Positions 9,080-14,257 of a stretch of DNA of 32,698 nt are shown piece after piece (within the stretch, counting starts at the first letter, position 1; every line of letters begins with the position of its first letter). This DNA comes from Acidobacteriota bacterium. Its GTDB lineage: Bacteria; Acidobacteriota; Terriglobia; Acidiferrales; UBA7541. The position numbers and the translations under genes were made by a program. Below the pieces are notes generated by a model that did no database searches, was not told the DNA's origin, and worked only from the letters and a program-made list of their open reading frames with translations. Location of the stretch: positions 1-32,698 of the forward strand of contig QHZB01000074.1 of assembly GCA_003224525.1 (NCBI GenBank). Reading direction: 5' to 3'.

Positions 9080-10297
9080 ATGAGCATTCCGCCCCACGAC
9101 GCTCCCGGTCACCCCGCCATGAATCCTGAAGTCGATGAGTCACTCGCTCGTGCGCGCGCGAGCGGCTCTGTCGGCCGCGAAGCTGCCCTTCAGTTTGCGC
9201 AAGCCCCGTTGCCAAATCTGCTGGCCGCTGCTACGGAAATCCGCGCCGCCGGGAAGGGAAATGAAATCAGCTTCTCAAAAAAAGTATTCATCCCTCTCAC
9301 CACCCTTTGCCGCGACTATTGTAGCTACTGCACTTTTCGTAAGGACCCCGGCCAGCCTGGCGCTCACTTCATGACACCGAACGAAGTCCTCGCGCTTGCA
9401 GAACAAGGCCGCCAGGCCGGCTGCAAGGAAGCTCTCTTCAGCCTTGGCGATCAACCCGAACGGATCTTTCCCGAAGCCAGCGAATTCCTGAGCAAACAGG
9501 GTTTTACGCGCACGCTCGACTATCTTGCCGCCATGTGCGAACTCGTTCTGGAAAAAACCGGCTTGCTCCCGCACGCCAATCCCGGCGTCATGGACCGCGC
9601 CGCCCTGATGCATCTGAAAGAGTCGAACGCCAGTGTCGGCCTGATGCTCGAAAACGTCAGCCCGCGCCTGATGCGCGACGACTTGCCGCATGCCAAAGCC
9701 CCAGACAAGGTGCCCGCGCTGCGTCTCCGCACCATCGAAGAAGCGGGGAAGCTCTCCATCGCTTTCACCACTGGAATTTTGATTGGCATCGGCGAAACCA
9801 TGGAAGAACGCATCGACTCCCTCCTTGCGATTCGAACACTCCATGAAGAGTACGGTCACATCCAGGAAGTCATCATTCAGAATTTCCGCGCCAAGCCGGA
9901 AATTCCCATGGCCGCGCACGCGGAGCCGTCTCTTGAAGATATGCTGCGCACCATCGCTCTCGCCCGCCTGATCCTTGGCCCGCACATGAACGTCCAAGCT
10001 CCGCCAAACCTGAGCTACGGCGATTTCCCCCGTTTGCTGGAAGCGGGCATCAACGATTGGGGCGGCATTTCCCCCGTCACCAAAGATTTCATCAATCCCG
10101 AAGCGGCTTGGCCGCAGATCGCGCGGTTGCAAGCCGAGACCGAATCTCGCGGTTTCGTTTTGCGCGAACGCCTGGCGCTCTATCCGGAGTTTGTCCGCCG
10201 GGAAGAATTTCTTTCGCCTCGCGTCCGCGATCGGGTTGCACCCCTATCGGGCGCGGACGGATTTGCGCGGTGCACCGGGCTTGCGGCCCGCATCTGA
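9080..10297 (+). CDS. cofG: 7,8-didemethyl-8-hydroxy-5-deazariboflavin (FO) synthase subunit CofG
   Basis: A radical-SAM enzyme that, with CofH, makes the deazaflavin core FO of coenzyme F420. With the start at 9080 (405 residues) the [4Fe-4S] motif CxxxCxxC is Cys77, Cys81, Cys84 in LCRDYCSYCTF. It is preceded by the typical ISFSKKVFIPLT and followed by ALFSLGDQPE, LPHANPGVM, SVGLMLENVS and TTGILIGIGET. The C-terminal half has IIQNFRAKPEIPM and NDWGGISPVTKDFINPE, diagnostic of CofG rather than CofH. The frame is open upstream to 8942, but that part overlaps the pseudogene and has no homology; ATG 9119 is another possible start. The stop is 7 nt before cofD. No CofH partner lies in the window. 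Confidence 0.93.
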   Translation: MSIPPHDAPGHPAMNPEVDESLARARASGSVGREAALQFAQAPLPNLLAAATEIRAAGKGNEISFSKKVFIPLTTLCRDYCSYCTFRKDPGQPGAHFMTPNEVLALAEQGRQAGCKEALFSLGDQPERIFPEASEFLSKQGFTRTLDYLAAMCELVLEKTGLLPHANPGVMDRAALMHLKESNASVGLMLENVSPRLMRDDLPHAKAPDKVPALRLRTIEEAGKLSIAFTTGILIGIGETMEERIDSLLAIRTLHEEYGHIQEVIIQNFRAKPEIPMAAHAEPSLEDMLRTIALARLILGPHMNVQAPPNLSYGDFPRLLEAGINDWGGISPVTKDFINPEAAWPQIARLQAETESRGFVLRERLALYPEFVRREEFLSPRVRDRVAPLSGADGFARCTGLAARI

Positions 10298-10304
10298 CTC
10301 TTCT

Positions 10305-11261
10305 ATGCCTCCAGCCAAAAAACTCAAAATCACCGCTCTCGCCGGTGGCGTAGGCGCTTCAAAACTGCTCCTCGGTCTCTATGAAGTGATGGACCCAGGC
10401 TTGTTGACCATCATCGTCAACACCGGCGACGACATCGCTCTCCACGGCTTGAAGATTTCGCCGGACCTCGACATCGTGACGTATACCCTGGCGGGAGTCG
10501 TCGATTCCGCAAAAGGCTGGGGCATTCGCGGGGAAACTTTTCATGCCCTGAAACGCCTCGCCGGCTACGGGCGCGCCAACTGGTTCAACCTGGGCGACCG
10601 CGACCTCGCCACGCACATCCATCGCACCGGCATGCTCGCCGAGGGAAAGACGTTGTCCCAGGCCGCGGATTCGATTCGAACGGCCCTGCGCGTGAAATCC
10701 CGGATCCTCCCGATGTCCGATGACCCCATCCCGACGATGATCGATTCGAACGAGGGCTCGCTGCATTTTCAGGAATACCTGGTGAAGCGCCGCACCGAGC
10801 CTGTCGTCCGCGGCATCCGTTTTGCCGGTGCGGAATCCGCGCGGCCTGCCCCGGGCGTCCTCGAAGCCATTCGCGATGCCGACCGCGTCATCATCTGCCC
10901 CAGCAATCCGCTGATCAGCATCGGCCCGATTCTTGCCGTGCCGGGAATTCGTGAGCAGTTACGAACTCACAAAGAAAAAGTGTTCGCCGTGTGTCCCATC
11001 GTCGGAGGGAAATCGCTCAAGGGCCCCTCTGACAAAATGCTAGTCCAGCTCGGCCTCAAGCCGGCAGCCCTGGGCGTCGCCAAACTCTACGCCGATTTCA
11101 CCAGCATCTTCGTGATCGATCCCGCGGACAAATCGCAATCCGCCGCTATCTCCGCGCTCGGCATGAAAGTTGTTATTCTTCCGACGGTAATGAAAACGCG
11201 TGCGCAGAAACGCAAACTCGCCCGCGCTCTCCTGTCTTTATCTCCCTCTTCGGCGTTGTAG
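10305..11261 (+). CDS. cofD: phospholactate/phosphoenolpyruvate:FO transferase CofD (FbiA)
   Basis: CofD joins the activated phospho-acid-guanosine intermediate to FO, giving F420-0 or dehydro-F420-0. The 318-residue product is the usual family length. It shows ALAGGVGASKLLLGLYEV (11-28, the nucleotide/FO-binding loop, with ASK where many homologues have GAK), VNTGDDIALHGLKISPDLD (38-56), WFNLGDRDLATHIHR (93-107), CPSNPLISIGPILAVPGIR, and KGPSDKML. It starts 7 nt after the cofG stop, so the two form an operon. The frame is open upstream into cofG, but the family match begins at the ATG used here. The natural phospho-acid donor cannot be read from the sequence; the partner guanylyltransferase CofC/FbiD is not in the window. 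Confidence 0.93.
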   Translation: MPPAKKLKITALAGGVGASKLLLGLYEVMDPGLLTIIVNTGDDIALHGLKISPDLDIVTYTLAGVVDSAKGWGIRGETFHALKRLAGYGRANWFNLGDRDLATHIHRTGMLAEGKTLSQAADSIRTALRVKSRILPMSDDPIPTMIDSNEGSLHFQEYLVKRRTEPVVRGIRFAGAESARPAPGVLEAIRDADRVIICPSNPLISIGPILAVPGIREQLRTHKEKVFAVCPIVGGKSLKGPSDKMLVQLGLKPAALGVAKLYADFTSIFVIDPADKSQSAAISALGMKVVILPTVMKTRAQKRKLARALLSLSPSSAL

Positions 11262-11386: not shown

Positions 11387-12091
11387 TCATTCGTGAACGC
11401 CAACCGTTGTCTGTCCCGGCAGCGTCGTATGAATCCAAGCTTCCGCCGCGATGAGGTGCAGCACAAAGCCGATCCAGAATCCGATGCCGAAGAATTCATA
11501 CGGCGTCAAGCCTGAAAAACGGCTCGTAGCAAAGAACATTCCAATGATGGGGCGGATGGTGGCCACGGCAAGCCCCACCGAGTAGGAACGAATCATCCAC
11601 TCGCGGTGCAGTGCGATTTCACGCCGCCGGATATGCCAAAACGCCTTGCACAGCGCGAATAGAAAGAATATGGCGAACAGTGTCGTCGCCGCCGCCTGAT
11701 TTATTCCGCCGATAGCGGGCATGCCAAAGCTCATCACCAGCGCCGAAATTCCGATGACCAGGCCGCAAATCACAAAAATGCGGCCACTCCAGCGGTGCCA
11801 TCGGAGGTGGCGCGCCCGAATGGTTGAACTAAACTGCAATGGACCCAGCATCATGAAAAGCAAGCCAGGCGCAATATGAACAAGAGTCAGGATCGGATAG
11901 TGCGCGAACAAATCATCCAGCGCAGCAAACCGTGCAGCCACGGGATTGCATGTGGCCGCGGGTGGATGATAGCCTCTGACCACAATAGGCAGCAGATGCA
12001 CCATCCTCCGCACTGCGACGGCAACTCCAATAAACGCCAGAAAAATGACCACGCTCCATAGCGTTCGCCGGAGACGAATACCAGGCTTCAT
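11387..12091 (-). CDS. DUF2306 integral membrane protein
   Basis: A 234-residue multi-pass membrane protein with about six or seven hydrophobic segments, beginning with LWSVVIFLAFIGVAVAV at about 11-27. The family signature is clear: LVHIAPGLLFMMLGPLQF, then RARHLRWHRWSGRIFV, and the later HREWMIRSYSVGLAVATIRPI. The conserved histidines and arginines in the loops are typical of DUF2306, whose function is not established; haem or quinone binding is only a guess. It lies on the strand opposite to cofD and in the same direction as the downstream-lying selenoprotein gene, about 116 nt after that gene's stop. Confidence 0.82.
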   Translation of the reverse strand: MKPGIRLRRTLWSVVIFLAFIGVAVAVRRMVHLLPIVVRGYHPPAATCNPVAARFAALDDLFAHYPILTLVHIAPGLLFMMLGPLQFSSTIRARHLRWHRWSGRIFVICGLVIGISALVMSFGMPAIGGINQAAATTLFAIFFLFALCKAFWHIRRREIALHREWMIRSYSVGLAVATIRPIIGMFFATSRFSGLTPYEFFGIGFWIGFVLHLIAAEAWIHTTLPGQTTVGVHE

Positions 12092-12207: not shown

Positions 12208-13569
12208 TTATTTGTGTCGGATGTTCACGGGGGCTCGGGTCCGATCCAGTGGGAACACCTGCAGTTCCCATTTCGCCGGGACGGACGTTGGCAGGTAGCA
12301 GATGGTTTTGTCGCAAGCCTGATACTCAAGCTTTCCCGTAATGATGAAGAGTTTCCCGTCTTTCCCCAGCGAGCCCCAGAACTCTGACCCGGAGTTCACC
12401 TTCACATCCTGGCTGATGCGGAACGTCCCTTCGAGAACGGGTACCTTCTCCTTGATCGCGGGCAAATAGAGAATTTTAGACGCTGGGTAAACCGCCGGTT
12501 TGAACTCCAACTGCGCGACAGGTTCAATCAGGAGCTGAATGGGCTTATAACCCTGGGTGCCGGGCGCATACACATGCACATCGGGGGGCAACCGCACTTC
12601 GGCAGCGAGGGTGACGCGAGTACCGGGTACGCCGATGGGATCGGATTGTTCGAGTGCCAGTTGAAGATGCGGAGCTTCGACCGTTTCCGTTACTTCTTGG
12701 CCCAATTCCGGGAAAAGCTTGGAAATAATGCTATTTCCGGTAAGCCGTTCCCGGTATTTTGCTTCGAAGAACTTTTCTCGAATGATGCCGTTGGGATCAA
12801 TGAAAAAATATCCGGGGCGAGCAAAGCCCTTCTGCATCCCGGTAGCTTCCTGATTGAGGACTCCATAAGCCTGGATGGTCTTCGAGTCAGGGTCCGCGAG
12901 CATCGGATATGCGATCTTGTGCCGGTCGGCAAAATATTTCAGGATTTCTTCCGTGTCATAGCTGATGGCCGCCAGCTTGACCCCTTGCTTTTCGAATCGC
13001 GGGATGGCGCTTTGCAGCTGGACCAGCTGCCCTTTGCAGAACGGTCACCAGTCCGCCGAACGGAAAAAGAGAAGAACGGTGCCGTTCGTTCCTTTCAAGG
13101 TATCGAGAGTTTGCACCCGGCCAGACTGGTCGTGAACTGAAAAAGCAGGCGCCTTTTGACCGACGGCGAGTCCAATCGACATCAACTCGATGGAAGCCAT
13201 CCGAATTGTACTGTCATCGAGTGTCCCCCGGACGGTCACCGCGTCTCCCAAGTGAGCGGCTACCTTTTCCTGTGGCTCAAGGCCGTACATCATCCTGTTC
13301 GTATCGTCATACAGCGCCAGCTTCGCGCCCGGCACGTTCTTGGTGCACTCGGGAGATTCGGCAAACGCTTCGTCTGCGTTGCAGCTGCTGAACACCAGGA
13401 TTCCGGACCACGATCCGGACTTTGTTGCGGAGTTTATTGAATTGTTCTGCCCAGCTACTGCGAGAGGGGCTATTGAAAAAAGCGCTGCCAGACAGAGGAA
13501 GAAGCGTTTCGCCGTAGAATCAGTTCCGACCGAGAACACCGCACAGTCTCGTCGCACAACGCCTGCCAA
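12208..13569 (-). CDS. predicted selenoprotein: peroxiredoxin-like domain fused to DsbD-alpha-like domain
   Basis: One minus-strand frame of 453 codons is interrupted only by TGA at 13045-13047, in FFRSADW-TGA-PFCKGQLVQLQ. Related AhpC/TSA-type proteins have Cys there, so it reads as Sec175 in a UxxC motif with Cys178. A SECIS-like hairpin follows. Layout: export signal (about 15-40, FFLCLAALFSIAPLAVA); a small beta domain (about 45-120); a thioredoxin-fold peroxiredoxin domain (about 125-270: VGQKAPAFSVHDQSGRVQTL, UPFC, AAISYDTEEILKYFADRH, YPMLADPDSKTIQAYGV); and a DsbD-alpha-like domain (about 290-445) with YQACDKTICYLP supplying Cys419 and Cys424. The start is uncertain: TTG 13569, or GTG 13557, which has GGCAGG 4 nt upstream. 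It follows npdG by about 10 nt, so the two are probably cotranscribed. A disabled Cys gene is the alternative. Ordinary gene callers would split it. Confidence 0.82.
13014..13030 (-). promoter_or_regulatory. bacterial SECIS-like hairpin after the in-frame UGA
   Basis: On the coding (minus) strand GCAGCTG-GTC-CAGCTGC is a perfect 7-bp stem with a GUC loop; opening the top pair gives a GGUCC loop. The stem begins 15 nt after the UGA, and the loop G is the 22nd nt. Known bacterial SECIS elements place a small G/GU-containing apical loop roughly 16-37 nt after the UGA, and the E. coli fdhF element has GGUC in its loop. The hairpin lies inside coding sequence (G-Q-L-V-Q-L-Q), as in other bacterial selenoprotein genes. 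Confidence 0.75.
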
Positions 13570-13579
13570 TGAAGAAGTG

Positions 13580-14257
13580 TCACTTCAAGGGAAGTCCGGT
13601 AAACCGAATCCCTGCCCCGTGAACTTTGTAGCGCATATTCAATCCAATCAACAACGCCGTCAGCGACTCCACAATGCGCGCATTCTCCAATGTTCCTCCA
13701 TTCAATGGCCGCGCTCCCGGAATCTTGCTGACCAATTCGAATGTCACCTGCTTGGCTTTCTCATCGTCGCTGCATACCAAAACGTCGCAATCCACTGGTG
13801 CATCTCCGGCAAGCAATTCCGCTCCAAGATTCTGCAACGCGGCTGCCAGGCTCACGCTTGCAGGCAGCAGTTCCCTCGTCTGTTCGGCCGCCGAGCCTTG
13901 CCAGACGCCGAGCAGGCGCGTTGTTGCTCCGCCGATCGTCGCGGCCAGTGGCACTGTGGTATCGATCACCATCGTGCCCGGTTTCCAAACACTCTTCAGT
14001 TGTTTGAGCAGCGCCACCACGCCGGAGAAGGGAACAGTCAACACCGCGACATGGCACGCAGCCGCGGCAGAAGGATTGTCCAGGCCTTCGACCTGCGCGG
14101 CGCCGCCAATACGCTCGCGTAGCAGTCTTGCGGTTTCTTGCGCGCGAGCCGCCTCGCGCGATCCGATCAGGACGTGTTCCCCAGCCTTCGCCATTCGAAA
14201 CGCAAGCCCGGAACCTTCGGCTCCCGTTCCGCCCAGAATCGCGATCTTTCGCGCCAT
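13580..14257 (-). CDS. npdG: F420:NADP+ oxidoreductase (NADPH-dependent F420 reductase)
   Basis: This enzyme moves hydride between F420H2 and NADP+ in the cytoplasm, supplying or draining reduced F420. The 225-residue protein opens with the Rossmann dinucleotide site KIAILGGTGAEGSGLAFRMA (4-23) and VLIGSRE (29-35), whose SR is typical of NADP(H) binding. The middle has AVLTVPFSGV and DTTVPL. The C-terminal third carries the family signature ENARIVESLTALLIGLNMRY followed by GIRFTGLP. It is divergent from the flavin reductase and lies directly upstream of the selenoprotein gene on the same strand. With cofE, cofG and cofD within 8 kb, an F420 role is well supported; an F420-independent oxidoreductase of the same fold is the main alternative. 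Confidence 0.88.
   Translation of the reverse strand: MARKIAILGGTGAEGSGLAFRMAKAGEHVLIGSREAARAQETARLLRERIGGAAQVEGLDNPSAAAACHVAVLTVPFSGVVALLKQLKSVWKPGTMVIDTTVPLAATIGGATTRLLGVWQGSAAEQTRELLPASVSLAAALQNLGAELLAGDAPVDCDVLVCSDDEKAKQVTFELVSKIPGARPLNGGTLENARIVESLTALLIGLNMRYKVHGAGIRFTGLPLK

Follow-up and report, generated by a model that had tools for sequence, protein, structure and literature searches.

In a soil acidobacterium, a gene that standard gene calling cuts in two is almost certainly read straight through an in-frame TGA codon, with selenium being built into a redox enzyme. The gene is located on the minus strand of the window, i.e. the whole stretch of 32,698 nucleotides that was analysed (table 1). 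The best joint explanation of our data, which we hold with high confidence, is that the TGA is decoded as selenocysteine (Sec, U) by means of a hairpin just downstream of it and that the product is a probably exported protein with a UxxC redox pair. As judged by sequence comparison, read-through coding, the identity of the site with a cysteine position, the conservation of the hairpin and the presence of the decoding machinery in the genome are all established.

An in-frame TGA in a conserved gene

When the TGA is read as U, the frame is fully open, with U175 as its single TGA and the terminal TAA as the next stop, while the TTG at 13569 represents the limit of the open reading frame only and not an established start. 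The sequence around the site is GTVLLFFRSADW-U-PFCKGQLVQLQ. A standard ORF list gives two parts, of 174 aa (13045-13569) and 231 aa (12208-12903), but a single Pfam domain, AhpC-TSA (PF00578; 115.1 bits, cut-off 26), covers residues 136-265 and spans the Sec at 175. A preliminary description of this DNA had claimed as much, i.e. one continuous frame with a single TGA, two halves that match one domain and a standard annotation of two short proteins, and all of this was confirmed when the sequence was re-read, as was the statement that related proteins have Cys at the TGA (TGC or TGT in 52 of 76 scored loci).

Table 1. Features of the gene and its product (position 1 is the first letter of the window).
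Feature	Position	Strand	Basis
Predicted selenoprotein gene	12208..13569	-	open frame, Pfam domains, homologues, structure model, dN/dS
In-frame TGA, predicted U175 of W-U-P-F-C	13045..13047	-	frame; same TGA in homologues
C178 codon (TGC), second residue of the redox pair	13036..13038	-	invariant in 13-row alignment; aligns with the Cys of AhpE TGIC
bSECIS-like hairpin GCAGCTG-GTC-CAGCTGC	13014..13030	-	loop 21 nt past the TGA; G first in loop
Protein layout (residues): leader-like N-terminal stretch; N-terminal domain (about 50-130); UxxC AhpC/TSA-like domain (136-265); DsbD_N-like domain (313-428)			

Comparison of the window gene with eight relatives gave dN/dS ratios of 0.042-0.157 for the 277 codons past the TGA, similar to the 0.073-0.158 found in the same eight pairs for the 40 codons before it; as several dS values exceed 1, single ratios are rough. 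By this measure, purifying selection acts on the part 3' of the TGA, and the downstream part is therefore translated. Other read-through frames in the window were numerous in a scan, none of them being convincing by eye; the family search was run for the gene itself only.

The same TGA occurs in the homologues of 12 of 40 relatives (L026-L037), with identities of 62-85% for 11 of these and 46% for L037. A wider scan of contigs confirmed 190 loci, of which the best 80 were kept; the motif could be scored in 76 of them (the four without it being L089, L097, L099 and L128), with Sec in 24 and Cys (TGC/TGT) in 52. Since one of the two patterns used for scanning spells Cys at this position, these counts are no census. 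The site search pattern allowed only U, C, S or T; moreover, the two Sec counts overlap, with 11 of the 24 scan loci representing the same contigs as L026-L036. The closest loci among the best 80 of 190 are from Acidobacteria, several of them from group gp2. In this otherwise mainly acidobacterial set, the contig of L062 is filed under Formivibrio and that of L107 under Bifidobacterium breve, both probably misbinned or misnamed.

Two further observations concern related sequences. In one genome, a second, fragmented copy (G018:C120:19222-19858) consists of several match pieces with one TGA and one TAG and resembles a decaying paralogue, and the match at L128 is broken likewise. In addition, related genomes contain a second AhpC/TSA group of seven loci, with the motif FYRGYWUPFC (L038-L041, L044 and L045) or FYRGHWUPFC (L042), none of which shares the RSADW motif seen in the family of the window gene.

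The hairpin downstream of the TGA

The TGA is separated by 14 bases (13044-13031) from a hairpin that starts at the 15th base, where the preliminary description had placed a 7-bp stem, and that consists of GCAGCTG (13030-13024), a GTC loop (13023-13021) and CAGCTGC (13020-13014), which pair perfectly over 7 bp. That this hairpin is SECIS-like, as had also been proposed, is upheld by its conservation, its covariation and, for the window sequence, its agreement with published limits for bacterial SECIS elements. According to the accessible part of PMC13188914, these are an upper stem of 4-16 bp, a loop of 3-9 nt with a G in the first two positions, a spacing of 16-37 nt and a minimum free energy of at most -7.5; the window hairpin has 7 bp, the GTC loop, a spacing of 21 nt and -11.2 kcal/mol on a 34-nt stretch. 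The energy limit in this source is missed by three of 24 distinct Sec sequences, i.e. two with 5 bp and -4.2 kcal/mol (L032/L065 and L033/L067) and one with -6.8 kcal/mol (L036/L080), again on 34-nt stretches.

In terms of distinct 54-base sequences, on which all our hairpin statistics are based, 24 of 24 Sec sequences form a helix of 5 bp or more at this site, and in each of them a Val codon contributes the G of the loop. Homologues that share the TGA but lack the hairpin and are otherwise disrupted, the second counterargument named in the preliminary description, were not seen among them. On the Cys side, 5 bp are reached by six of 50 sequences (L071, L072, L104, L106, L109 and L112), among which the loop G is confined to L104 and L109. 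When the structure is imposed on the 24-row Sec alignment, 92.9% of the cells pair, a value that 4 of 500 shuffles equalled or surpassed, whereas no shuffle out of 500 reproduced either the both-side changes seen at four of the seven pairs or the covariation score. RNAalifold, used unaided on the 24 Sec sequences, recovered six pairs of the stem, all but the innermost, which is unpaired in 10 of these sequences.

Does this hairpin direct Sec insertion, or is it a by-product of the QLV[QE]LQ peptide encoded here, with some other element being responsible? Partial stems are indeed to be expected from the peptide, since synonymous resampling of the Sec set yields a mean helix of 3.06 bp; the observed mean of the 24 Sec sequences, however, is 6.5 bp and lies above every one of the 2000 group means simulated (maximum 4.29 bp), although related rows are not independent and this comparison thus provides no strict probability. 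In the 50 distinct Cys sequences, 2.14 bp were observed versus 2.05 bp expected. The Cys locus L104, with a 6-bp stem and the loop G, also speaks for a by-product, but the very same peptide, PYCKTQLVELQ, is associated with 7 bp in L037 (Sec), 6 bp in L104 (Cys) and just 1 bp in L096 (Cys), i.e. the peptide permits the stem but does not force it, and there are compensatory synonymous changes in the stem, e.g. in L030. Finally, and in favour of a by-product, the 48-nt stretch past the TGA prefers a different hairpin when folded alone (z -0.21), so it is the comparative evidence and not the fold of a single sequence that reveals the element. Overall, it is very unlikely that the hairpin is only a by-product, and we consider it the element that would direct Sec insertion.

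Selenocysteine machinery and the history of the site

The genome that carries the window gene also has the machinery for Sec insertion, including the two components, selB and selC, whose absence had been named as a counterargument: selB (363.9 bits), selA (568.3), selD (350.7) and tRNA-Sec (63.8) are all over cut-off, and ARAGORN calls a tRNA-SeC(tca). Among 14 control genomes, the cut-off was passed by selB in two, selA in one, selD in two and the tRNA-Sec model in five. As this last model also found a second place over cut-off in the own genome (48.0 bits), the ARAGORN call carries more weight. The own selD frame itself contains a TGA, at AGUAAK (G000:C379, L013). Elsewhere in this genome, in-frame TGAs were seen in a classical-type peroxiredoxin (NTSGUTIEA; contig C370, L138) and in a TlpA-like protein (WASWUGC; C117, L145), and a candidate AhpC-TSA frame with a TGA on C90 was marked in one scan and not recovered by a second.

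Among the relatives, all 12 with the Sec form have selA over cut-off, but so do 37 of 41 genomes of that set with or without the gene, so its presence does not discriminate there. In 40 genomes tested via the loci, by comparison, selA is over cut-off in 9 of 13 with Sec versus 4 of 27 with Cys. For the four Sec genomes without selA, selB is over cut-off in two (L076 and L078) and not in the other two (L062 and L081), where the lack of both is likely due to misbinning or incompleteness, one being represented by a contig under an unrelated genus and the other by a genome of 3.1 Mb.

A quick tree built from 25 Sec and 27 Cys rows (52 in all), without the duplicates L026-L036 and without rows whose downstream part is short, needs at least three changes between Sec and Cys. 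The window gene falls into a cluster (support 98) of 27 rows, 24 with Sec and three with Cys (L071-L073), the latter nested among the former. The three Cys rows come from genomes without selA and without selB over cut-off, and have an Ile where elsewhere a Val codon supplies the loop G, with the loop G being absent. As read from these sequences, the absence of the machinery is as would be expected for a return to Cys, with the tree leaving the direction unfixed and the completeness of the genomes not being stated. L037, a Sec row on a long branch, groups with four Cys rows (support 99) and by its position probably represents a separate conversion of Cys to Sec. Its tree neighbour is L104, the Cys locus that already has the stem and the loop G and in whose genome selA was not found. 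One might speculate that the QLV[QE]LQ peptide so readily encodes a SECIS-like hairpin that some Cys forms are pre-adapted and a single-base change of TGC to TGA suffices; if this idea, to which we give only a small chance, were true, a coding constraint would steer where Sec arises. In any case, the family lends itself well to comparative studies, since its Sec and Cys forms share the same domains, are separated by several changes on the tree and differ in the hairpin, which accompanies Sec.

With the homologues, the hairpin and the genomes taken together, other readings of the TGA can be weighed. If it were a real stop, leaving a pseudogene or two separate genes, the two ORFs of the standard list would be accounted for, but one would have to explain why this codon is found again in many genomes where the remaining frame is open, why strong purifying selection operates on both sides of it in eight pairs and why one domain spans it, which makes this reading extremely improbable. 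The chance that TGC or TGT was mis-sequenced or misassembled here is practically negligible: the source assembly is fragmented (516 contigs, 6.47 Mb, 98.15% complete), yet the TGA is also present in other assemblies under other record names and, unlike an error, goes together with the hairpin. Suppression of the TGA without selenium, with Trp or Cys being inserted, is a subtler case, because the inserted residue cannot be identified computationally. Nevertheless, a full Sec machinery is present in the genome, the SECIS-like hairpin covaries, all of the 52 other scored loci have Cys (within a pattern that allowed only U, C, S or T) and the nested Cys subclade sits in genomes without selA and selB over cut-off, so that suppression is also highly improbable. 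Sec insertion at this TGA is thus the reading that we retain.

Domain architecture, proposed function and known relatives

Apart from PF00578, the central domain also matches PF08534 with a lower score (72.7 bits, cut-off 26.6), whereas no NCBIfam model reached its cut-off (ResA, 55.3 bits versus 170; SelL_rel_redox, 47.1 versus 120). The match of the C-terminal domain to DsbD_N (PF11412) is marginal (26.6 bits, cut-off 25), but its Cys pair, YQACDKTIC, is conserved. While Pfam was run on the window protein only, this Cys pair is missing from a single one of 25 Sec rows (L080) and a single one of 27 Cys rows (L106), and the joined domain is therefore common to both forms. An AlphaFold model has a mean pLDDT of 77.2 and a pTM of 0.54, with residues 1-48, 290-299 and 443-453 under 50. 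The 50 best solved structures listed include AhpE, other peroxiredoxins and ResA; by sequence and fold, AhpE-type peroxiredoxins are the best solved relatives.

The preliminary description had put Sec at the catalytic site of a peroxiredoxin-like protein. This is correct in so far as Sec belongs to a redox pair, but the peroxidatic position is taken by C178: in the alignment with AhpE, C178 falls on the Cys of TGIC, which we take to be the peroxidatic residue, and the Sec column falls on the Thr, which rules out Sec as the peroxidatic residue. By motif, we are thus dealing with a thioredoxin-like UxxC pair, in which the predicted Sec is the first (N-terminal) residue of a WCPxC-type redox pair.

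What could such a protein do? In our working model, the TGA would be translated as selenocysteine by the bacterial SelB/tRNA-Sec pathway under the direction of the hairpin. In the AhpC/TSA domain, which has a thioredoxin fold, the selenolate of U-x-x-C would attack the substrate, presumably a disulfide or a peroxide, and C178 would resolve the selenenyl-sulfide. By analogy to DsbD, the pair of the DsbD_N-like domain would probably exchange electrons with the UxxC pair, and these might be supplied by a DsbD/CcdA-type membrane donor, which is a guess. A hydrophobic N-terminal stretch ending in AVAGQ, as seen by eye, suggests that the protein is probably exported. Pfam found no DsbD membrane part in the window protein and no thioredoxin or DsbD-type partner among ten window ORFs tested; another contig of the genome (C12) has a frame that matches both DsbD_TM and AhpC-TSA. 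The joined DsbD_N-like domain suggests a way, open to testing, in which an exported selenoprotein could be maintained in reduced form.

Of the closest neighbouring genes, the one upstream (13580-14257, also on the minus strand) has an F420_oxidored match and the one downstream (11387-12091) a DUF2306 match. Searched with tblastn at 1e-5, the flanks of 55 homologous loci, which extend to at most 1.5 kb, contained no match to either neighbour, so gene context is of no help here. A CofD gene (F420 synthesis) is also nearby (10191-11261, plus strand).

With respect to known systems, the redox pair in a thioredoxin-like domain is shared with ResA/TlpA-type and SelL-related redox proteins, but the window protein stays below both NCBIfam cut-offs and has extra N- and C-terminal domains. 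In the N-terminal domain of E. coli DsbD the Cys pair is spaced as CxxxxxC, as compared to CxxxxC in the window protein. Classical Sec peroxiredoxins (PF00578, TxxU) belong to the same Pfam family, with AhpE-type peroxiredoxins being the best solved relatives of the window protein, but the window Sec is three residues earlier, at the Thr and outside the peroxidatic position. The Redoxin family selenoprotein (PF08534, UxxC), to which the accessible table of PMC13188914 devotes its own row, has a PF08534 match and UxxC in common with the window protein, which scores higher on PF00578, in a comparison made by description only.

The closest counterpart is the Prx-like thiol:disulfide oxidoreductase (PF00578, UxxC/UxxU), which the accessible parts of PMC1794560, PMC9312934 and PMC13188914 give as a predicted bacterial selenoprotein family. 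By its sequence, the window protein fits the UxxC form of this family, whose named members, e.g. WP_010940744.1, are known to us by description only: it has an AhpC/TSA match over the Pfam cut-off, UxxC, Cys homologues in the U column, a bSECIS element within the limits of PMC13188914 and the Sec machinery in its genome. It differs by its occurrence in Acidobacteria and by two additional domains, one N-terminal and one C-terminal, the latter being DsbD_N-like and bearing a second Cys pair. This domain combination is absent from the accessible table rows of PMC13188914, and the open-licence literature, supplements aside, when searched for the architecture and for selenoproteins of Acidobacteria, yielded no description of it. 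Thus, the kind of protein is already known, and it is the combination of domains for which no description was found. In the accessible text of PMC1794560, Acidobacteria had four selenoproteins in 2006, and in that of PMC12013277 one acidobacterium tested in 2025 had three known ones; a soil group with few selenoproteins in these sources would thus gain one, in the form of a UxxC oxidoreductase joined to a DsbD_N-like domain.
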